DNA of 37,556 nucleotides from Pseudomonadota bacterium (GTDB lineage Bacteria > Vulcanimicrobiota > Xenobia > RGZZ01): NCBI GenBank assembly GCA_010028905.1, contig RGZZ01000007.1:1-37556 (forward strand), in the 5' to 3' direction. The notes under the pieces are model-generated. The model made no database searches. It was given only the letters and a program-made list of their open reading frames with translations, and was not told the DNA's origin. This document shows, piece after piece, positions 7,752 to 10,036 of the stretch. The position numbers and the translations under genes are program-made. Within the stretch, counting starts at the first letter, position 1. Every line of letters begins with the position of its first letter.

Positions 7752-7883
7752 GATTTAGTGATGCGCTAAAATTTTCACCCGGAACACTTGACTTCGCACG
7801 TTCGCTTCGACAACAATACGCGCAACGTGGCGACCCGCACATGCACCGCCGCGCCCCAATGCAAGGGAGATCGGTGCTTCCCC

Positions 7884-8999
7884 GTGACGCTCACACTCGA
7901 CGCCCCCGACGCTGTCCTGGCCCGCCCTGCTTCGCAGCAGACCATTGCCGTCATCGGCGCGGGCAACTCTGCACGAGCCCTGGCGGCCTACCTGAGCGCC
8001 CAGGGCCATGTCGTACACATGCTCGTGCGAGATCTCTCGCGCACCGGCAGCCTGGCCGCAACTCGACAGGTCCGCGCGAGCGGAGGGGTGCAAGGCACCT
8101 TCGATCTGCAATCGGTCACCACCGACTGGAAGGCCGTCACGCACTGCGACACCGTCTTCATCGCCACCGTCACCACGGCATACGGCGAGGTGATCCGACG
8201 CCTCGCACCGCACCTGCGAGCAGGACAGACCCTGATCCTGTTCAGCAGCAAGCTGGCTGGCTCGGTCGAGGCGCAGCGCATCCTCGACGAGATGCAGGCA
8301 TCGCGCGTGGCCGTGGTGGAGACCGACGCGCTGTTCGCCTGCCGAATCCAGCCCGACGACTCGGTCTGGATTCGCGGCGTCAAGGGATGGACGCTGTACT
8401 CCGCTCCCCAGGCCGGTCGAACCGTCGCTGACGGCAGGCAGCTCCTCGCCTTCTTCCCTCGGCTGGAACCCGCTCGCAACGTGCTGCAGCGAGGGCTCAC
8501 AGACTTCGGGGCGCTCTGCCATCCGACGATCATGCTGGCCAACCTGAACACCATCGATCGAAAGTCACCCTTCCGATTCTACTACGAAGGACTCACCGAC
8601 CGAACGGTCTGCCTGCTCGAGCAGATGGAGTCAGAGTTCCAGCTCCTCGCGCGTGCCTATGACACACCGCTCATCGACATGACCGAGCTGCTGCATCGCT
8701 ACTACGGCTGCAACCGCAGCTCTCTGCTCGCGGCGATCCAGTCGGTGCCGAACTACCGGCACAGCCTCGCTCCCGACACCCTCTCGCATCGCTATCTGCT
8801 CGAAGACGTGCCGAACACGCTGGTTCCCCTGTATGAGCTGTCACGCCTGGCCGGACTGCGAACCCCGATGATCGATGCCGCGGTGAACATCGCGTCCATC
8901 GTGACGGGAATCGACTTCCTGCGCACCGGGCGAACCCTTGCGGCGCTGGGACTCGATGGGATGTCTGCCTCCGGGATCGTCGAATGGATGCTCGCATGA
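7884..8999 (+). CDS. NAD(P)-dependent opine dehydrogenase (octopine/nopaline family)
   Basis: About 371 residues. The N-terminal Rossmann domain (IAVIGAGNSARAL, residues 21-33) binds NAD(P); the C-terminal helical domain has the family's 'CHPTIMLANLNTID' substrate/catalytic region and 'TPMIDAAVNIASI' near the end. Such enzymes reductively join an amino group to a 2-oxo acid to make an opine; substrates cannot be read from sequence. The start is uncertain: the GTG used has AAGGGAGA ~14 nt upstream and gives a normal family length, while a TTG 96 bp earlier has little support. The stop overlaps the next gene, an EamA-type transporter, as ATGA. In staphylopine/pseudopaline loci an opine dehydrogenase (CntM) pairs with an EamA-type exporter (CntI), but no nicotianamine-synthase-like CntL gene is seen here. 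Confidence 0.85.
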   Translation: MTLTLDAPDAVLARPASQQTIAVIGAGNSARALAAYLSAQGHVVHMLVRDLSRTGSLAATRQVRASGGVQGTFDLQSVTTDWKAVTHCDTVFIATVTTAYGEVIRRLAPHLRAGQTLILFSSKLAGSVEAQRILDEMQASRVAVVETDALFACRIQPDDSVWIRGVKGWTLYSAPQAGRTVADGRQLLAFFPRLEPARNVLQRGLTDFGALCHPTIMLANLNTIDRKSPFRFYYEGLTDRTVCLLEQMESEFQLLARAYDTPLIDMTELLHRYYGCNRSSLLAAIQSVPNYRHSLAPDTLSHRYLLEDVPNTLVPLYELSRLAGLRTPMIDAAVNIASIVTGIDFLRTGRTLAALGLDGMSASGIVEWMLA

Positions 9000-10036
9000 G
9001 CGCATCGACCGAAGAGCGCACGCCCGCGTCCCCATCTGATCCCGAGCAGGCGGCCGTCTCCGCTGCGGGCGCGTGCCCGGCGGAGCGCCCCGCAGATGAC
9101 GCGTCCACGCCTCCCCCGCACCGCAGCGCGGTGGTCGGGTGGACCCTTCTGGCCCTTCTGGCGGCCGATGTCGAACCCATCCTGGTGAAGATCGGGTATC
9201 AGTCGCACGCCACGCCGCTGCAGCTGCTCACCGTGAAGACGATGTTGTCCGGACTTCTCATCTATCCGATCACCCGACGCTGGAGGTGGATGGGCTGGCG
9301 CAGATGCGCAGAGATGGCACGGGTGAGCGTGCTCCTGCTCATGACCAATCTGCTCATGCTGGCGGGTCTGTCACACGCAGGAGTGGTCACCGCGCTCACC
9401 ATCGTCACGACCACGCCGGCCCTCGTGGCACTCGTCAACAGGGCGCGGGGAAGAGAGGTGCACGATCTTCGGTTCTGGTGTGGATTCGTGCTCTGCTTCG
9501 GAGGCGTGCTGGTGACCCTCGATCCGGGAAGACAAGGCGGCCTGTCGTGCTCGGCGCTCGGCCTGGCGCTGCTCGGAGGGGCGGTGATATCGTCGACCCT
9601 GTACCGAACCGCCCTGGAAGATCTCACACGCCGCCACGAACCGCTGCTCATCTCGACCTGGTTCTTCATCATCAACGGAACCCTCGTGACCGTGCTGCTT
9701 CTGCCCTTCATCGGCCCCGTGCCCCCGACAGCCATCGGCATCGGCATGTGGATCGGCCTCACCGGCGCCCTGGCCAACGTCGCATTTGTCGCAGCCGTGT
9801 CGATGCTCGGCGCGACACGCATGTCGATCATCAACATGCTGCAGCGCCCGCTGATCATCGTGACCGCGGCCGTGATCCTCAACGAGCCGTTCTCTGCCTT
9901 GCAGGCCGTGGGCGTGGCGCTGGTCGTATGGGGTGTTCAGCTGGCCCGTGTGAAACGGAACGACCACGCTCGAAACGATGATTGCGCGCCCCTATTGCGT
10001 CCGGTCAGACGAGATGCTATAATACCGAGGCTCTGA
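8996..10036 (+). CDS. EamA/DMT-family transporter
   Basis: 346 residues with about ten hydrophobic helices in the two-fold EamA pattern, after a ~45-residue Pro/Ser/Ala-rich cytoplasmic N-terminal tail that most family members lack. The second repeat shows the usual 'MLQRPLIIVTAAVILNEPFSALQAVG' region with the conserved Glu-Pro. DMT transporters move small metabolites, often outward. The ATG overlaps the stop of the opine dehydrogenase, so the two are made together; export of the opine (or import of its precursor) is the natural guess. The 3' end contains the rpsT promoter, and the last ~20 residues are basic and probably cytoplasmic. Confidence 0.88.
   Translation: MSASTEERTPASPSDPEQAAVSAAGACPAERPADDASTPPPHRSAVVGWTLLALLAADVEPILVKIGYQSHATPLQLLTVKTMLSGLLIYPITRRWRWMGWRRCAEMARVSVLLLMTNLLMLAGLSHAGVVTALTIVTTTPALVALVNRARGREVHDLRFWCGFVLCFGGVLVTLDPGRQGGLSCSALGLALLGGAVISSTLYRTALEDLTRRHEPLLISTWFFIINGTLVTVLLLPFIGPVPPTAIGIGMWIGLTGALANVAFVAAVSMLGATRMSIINMLQRPLIIVTAAVILNEPFSALQAVGVALVVWGVQLARVKRNDHARNDDCAPLLRPVRRDAIIPRL
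9995..10023 (+). promoter_or_regulatory. Promoter of rpsT inside the 3' end of the transporter gene
   Basis: TTGCGT at 9995-10000, a 17-base spacer, then a perfect TATAAT at 10018-10023. It lies ~105 bp upstream of the rpsT start, leaving an untranslated leader of about 100 bases that could take part in S20 autoregulation. Confidence 0.8.

Follow-up and report, generated by a model that had tools for sequence, protein, structure and literature searches.

The 37,556-nucleotide stretch of contig RGZZ01000007.1 analyzed here (the window) contains two overlapping genes, one for an opine dehydrogenase-like enzyme and the other for an EamA-family transporter, with no CntL-like gene, and raises the question of what such a pair might synthesize and export. 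Opines have been described in crown galls and marine animals and in a few metallophores. The reading favored here, which we consider rather likely, is that the pair represents a stand-alone two-gene cassette for opine synthesis and export that would convert a free (most likely acidic) amino acid and a 2-oxo acid into an exported opine.

The dehydrogenase gene occupies positions 7884 to 8999 of the forward strand, from a GTG start codon at 7884 to a TGA stop codon at 8997 to 8999, and codes for a protein of 371 amino acids; its reading frame and that of the transporter are both intact. The C-terminal domain matches the Pfam family PF02317 (Octopine_DH) with 119.2 bits (curated cut-off, 30), and a genome-wide search found no other PF02317 gene in the window genome. 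The opine dehydrogenase of Arthrobacter sp. 1C (ArODH or CENDH; PDB 1bg6) is the top match both by sequence, with an E value of 1.5e-49 over almost the whole length, and by predicted fold, the match to the scallop octopine dehydrogenase being far weaker. In Foldseek, the AlphaFold model of the enzyme (pLDDT 93.6) superimposes on 1bg6 with TM scores of 0.88/0.93 (about 0.9), as expected of the two-domain opine dehydrogenase fold, and 1bg6 outranks the octopine, yersinopine, and pseudopaline dehydrogenases, as well as ketopantoate reductases, in fold superposition. Gly25, Gly27, and Asn28 of the Rossmann GxGN motif and the His213-Asp308 dyad align with their counterparts in ArODH, and His213, Asp308, and Arg303 are retained in all 54 aligned sequences. 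Judged by sequence and model, this is a genuine octopine dehydrogenase-fold protein carrying the catalytic His-Asp dyad.

Two other family assignments were rejected. The initial annotation had allowed that the enzyme might fall into an unrelated clade, for instance that of plain ketopantoate-like reductases (ApbA/PanE). The PF02317 domain, the dyad, and the ArODH fold speak otherwise: only the N-terminal Rossmann part resembles those reductases, the C-terminal ApbA domain is absent from the matches, and the ketopantoate reductase model TIGR00745 scores 24.5 bits against a cut-off of 141. Assignment to the CntM-type staphylopine dehydrogenases fails as well, as the PF10100 and NF033600 models match only the Rossmann stretch and remain below their cut-offs (16.9 bits versus 25; 18 bits versus 675). 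In a quick tree that also contained ArODH, the scallop enzyme, octopine and vitopine synthases, and other PF02317-type enzymes as references (CntM sequences were left out, and some reference branches are long), the window enzyme and 53 relatives make up one clade (SH-aLRT 100), distinct from ArODH, the octopine/vitopine synthases, and the other PF02317 enzymes. ArODH is homologous to the window enzyme over its whole length but only ~32% identical to it. The octopine and vitopine synthases of Agrobacterium, which are expressed in plant tumors, are likewise PF02317-type enzymes with the same catalytic residues but sit on their own branch.

The transporter gene (positions 8996 to 10036, forward strand; ATG at 8996, TGA at 10034 to 10036) codes for 346 amino acids with two EamA repeats. 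Its product matches PF00892 in two stretches (61.7 bits) and contains hydrophobic segments, in agreement with the EamA/DMT superfamily. The ATGA overlap of the dehydrogenase stop codon with the EamA start codon, pointed out in the initial annotation, is confirmed at positions 8996 to 8999 of the forward strand. Read from 8996, the protein has a stretch of ~45 residues ahead of the first membrane span that is missing in several homologs. Translation could also begin at a GTG codon near 9130, but a similar N-terminal extension is found in several relatives whose overlapping ATG is clear. Upstream of the pair, at positions 7788 to 7817 of the forward strand, there is a weak sigma-70-like promoter match (9 of 12 consensus positions), which reflects the consensus only and is not evidence of function.

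The flanking genes are housekeeping or unrelated to the pair, as had been supposed. Upstream lie the genes for SurE and an Fe/Mn superoxide dismutase and a small open reading frame; downstream come the genes for ribosomal protein S20 (rpsT), an Indigoidine_A (PF04227) protein, FTCD_C, and an amidohydrolase resembling imidazolonepropionase; TPR and FHA proteins were also among the neighbors scanned. An M4/M36-like peptidase encoded upstream was considered as a conserved partner and rejected, being found in two f2 genomes and not more widely. G002 was considered as an empty site and proved uninformative, its rpsT gene not being syntenic with that of the window.

A class-level search of 98 genomes (the window's own and 97 relatives) found the enzyme at 46 to 53% identity in eight other genomes and as a contig-edge fragment in a ninth. 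A homologous EamA gene directly adjoins the enzyme gene in all eight class genomes in which this could be checked, and class genomes without the enzyme contain zero matches to this EamA. G004, the genome with the enzyme fragment, has a piece of EamA ahead of a ligase gene (see below) and a further EamA copy elsewhere; G005 also has a second EamA copy. In G008, the order of the two genes is reversed. A fusion of EamA with the dehydrogenase was considered there and discarded, because the long stretch is simply an open frame in another register that overlaps EamA; only the order is swapped.

A wider scan of GTDB genomes with an alignment query yielded 57 loci, eight of them on the same contigs as in the class genomes. 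These loci come from Melainabacteria/Obscuribacterales, Myxococcota, Eremiobacterota-type MAGs, rumen bacteria, and actinomycetes. EamA is adjacent to the enzyme in 29 of the 36 nonactinomycete loci, and the other flanks vary. In 22 of these 29 loci, as in the window, a start codon for EamA is positioned between −7 and +3 relative to the dehydrogenase stop codon, and six closely related loci show a longer overlap. Protein distances of the dehydrogenase and of EamA are correlated (r = 0.69, with none of 2,000 permutations as high), shared descent contributing to this value. The two genes form a conserved unit and are not accidental neighbors. Even a single adjacency would be unlikely by chance, because the window genome has only 12 EamA-domain matches (in fewer genes than that) among some thousands of genes, and chance is excluded because the pairing recurs in relatives. 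The unlinking of the transporter in related genomes, which the initial annotation had named as a finding against its reading, is not what these genomes display.

In the flanks fetched, no such EamA is seen near the enzyme in the 21 actinomycete loci or in 7 others, so the enzyme does not require it. The partners of the enzyme vary, given the actinomycetes without EamA and three loci (L097 to L099) with an AccC-like gene. The latter belong to a deep branch comprising Calescibacterium and related MAGs, where an AccC-like (biotin carboxylase-like) gene abuts or overlaps the dehydrogenase gene and is followed by a PdxT-like gene, with no EamA (L098, 1195 to 2559; L099, 1284 to 2648; L097, 8063 to 9415; identified by eye). 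In Amycolatopsis (L072, 3826 to 6886), a PF01663 phosphodiesterase is encoded just upstream of the dehydrogenase, with a Cys/Met PLP enzyme and an Lrp/AsnC regulator further up. In L091, L101, L102, and L103, the dehydrogenase gene is broken into two reading frames, representing either a pseudogene or a sequencing error.

The substrate pocket offers a hint that goes beyond the initial annotation. In ArODH, positions 111 and 198 switch the substrate from Phe to Asp, with the A/N pair in Phe-using and the R/G pair in Asp-using enzymes (Telek 2024, PMC10787698). The gap-free alignment of these sites places Lys123 and Gly209 of the window enzyme there. This K/G pair is found in none of 15 reference enzymes and is invariant in all 54 sequences of the clade, although the invariance of Gly209 in the wide sample is partly built in, as one of the two search patterns included it; the class genomes, found without patterns, also carry K/G. 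With moderate strength, the pair suggests an acidic amino acid substrate. Lys in place of the published Arg counts against this reading. The Asp-preferring metagenomic enzymes (mODHs) share with the window enzyme a positive residue and a Gly at the two specificity positions; by their published description (PMC10787698, the main text of which does not contain the word transporter), they are set apart from it, being close to 40% identical to ArODH, and they probably belong to another branch, closer to ArODH than the window enzyme is. After strand 2, the window enzyme has Val48-Arg49, the Arg being invariant, where ArODH has an Asp at the NAD-ribose position, which is in line with a preference for NADPH.

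Some lineages add a third gene, which is also new relative to the initial annotation. In the rumen-type genomes G005, G006, and G015, EamA is followed by a protein of ~480 to 490 amino acids (in G006 ended by the contig end), and in G004 this gene lies behind the EamA piece on one contig. The same enzyme-EamA-ligase order is found in two Myxococcota loci (L049 and L080). The third protein matches FolC models weakly by sequence; the best matches to its predicted fold (pLDDT 76.5, from a model built from five sequences) are folylpolyglutamate synthases. It retains a P-loop, GSxGKAS, and a Lys that we take to match the one in the FolC "KAG" motif. These features suggest that a putative FolC-type ligase extends the acidic opine through an ATP-dependent amide bond in those lineages. 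As a conserved third gene of the window genome, the ligase was rejected: the window genome has no FolC-like gene, which means that the two-gene form has to manage without one. In G014, a ligase of this FolC-like type is encoded (C354, 2432 to 3766; L042 and L046) on a contig different from that of the dehydrogenase-EamA pair.

What the exported compound would be for can be read in several ways. Animal octopine dehydrogenase serves as a redox overflow enzyme. The pair might similarly act as an overflow valve for redox equivalents or nitrogen, as in octopine or alanopine formation, with NAD(P)+ regenerated at low oxygen and EamA expelling the waste opine. Two genes would suffice for this role, with no need for an uptake system, and several carriers are rumen bacteria or belong to Melainabacteria-type lineages. 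However, the enzyme is also found in soil actinomycetes (Amycolatopsis) without EamA, and the FolC-type ligase of some lineages would consume ATP to modify the product. All in all, this reading appears unlikely.

Slightly less probable still is an opine-type metallophore, in which an acidic opine would chelate zinc or another metal and be taken back up through importers whose genes lie elsewhere in the genome. A polycarboxylate opine could indeed chelate metals, and the cntKLM-I zincophore loci (staphylopine, pseudopaline, and yersinopine) likewise link an enzyme of the opine dehydrogenase fold to an exporter, which is an EamA protein in the clusters of the Pseudomonas aeruginosa and Yersinia pestis type (PMC7438024). 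That survey, the only item on opine (or octopine) dehydrogenase together with EamA found in a literature search that left most subscription journals outside, defines a zincophore cluster by a nicotianamine synthase (NAS) gene directly upstream and an importer and an exporter within six open reading frames. The window pair does not qualify: the exporter is linked, but the dehydrogenase is of a different family than CntM, there is no upstream NAS, and no importer is seen among the approximately four genes scanned on either side. The absence of a CntL-like gene, noted initially, holds genome-wide, with zero matches to the NAS/CntL family PF03059, and the family is absent from 13 of the 14 genomes with this dehydrogenase, the window genome included. 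In the Melainabacteria genome of L064, which has the pair, an NAS-family gene is present on another stretch (L111). A look for a TonB receptor elsewhere in the window genome, as initially proposed, turned up one TonB-receptor-type match, on another contig. In the flanks examined, neither an importer nor a TonB receptor nor a metal regulator was recognized beside the pair, which leaves "metal carrier," one of the roles first proposed, only a guess, and an Rfam search found no RNA family match near the operon. The comparison with CntM/CntI is an analogy that does not establish membership.

Catabolism, with EamA importing an opine or amino acid compound that the dehydrogenase would oxidize, is the least likely reading and a very improbable one, because EamA is the conserved partner and degradative genes are not; several plasmid-encoded PF02317 enzymes do have importer genes (AbgT, Na+ symporter, ABC, and TRAP) as neighbors or close by, but those enzymes are ~25 to 29% identical to the window enzyme and fall on the other side of the tree, and the EamA carriers of known opine systems export. 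Two plasmid octopine dehydrogenases of one clade (L107, 6403 to 7791; L108, 2306 to 3658) are encoded near MATE efflux genes, in L107 directly upstream of one, a possible enzyme-exporter pairing.

The initial interpretation thus stands as regards a conserved pair without CntL and a genuine opine dehydrogenase-fold enzyme; the kinship with CntM does not. As the pair is conserved, NAS/CntL is absent, and the enzyme has the octopine dehydrogenase fold, the natural reading of the sequences and models is that a free amino acid and a 2-oxo acid would be joined directly into an opine. In the favored synthesis-and-export cassette, the dehydrogenase would reductively condense a small pyruvate-like 2-oxo acid with the amino group of a free amino acid, which is most likely an acidic one (Asp or Glu), at the expense of NAD(P)H. 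The resulting N-(carboxyalkyl) amino acid would be exported by the cotranslated EamA carrier and, in some lineages, extended by the FolC-type ligase. EamA proteins handle many substrates and some of them import, which counts against taking export for granted. We infer the directions of reaction and transport, the substrates, the NADPH preference, the product, and its role, which may be that of a chelator, an overflow compound or redox valve, a signal, or something else. The prediction of an acidic substrate from Lys123 and Gly209 is concrete and open to a simple enzyme assay.

More tentatively, and with somewhat less than even confidence, the pairs of Eremiobacterota, Melainabacteria, and Myxococcota might constitute a cross-phylum family of opine cassettes, secreting opines of free acidic amino acids without CntL and, where the FolC-like ligase is present, opine-amide conjugates, which would be a new class of metabolites. 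An enzyme-exporter pair that is kept across several phyla, largely of uncultured organisms, would suggest that a class of exported small molecules has been overlooked.
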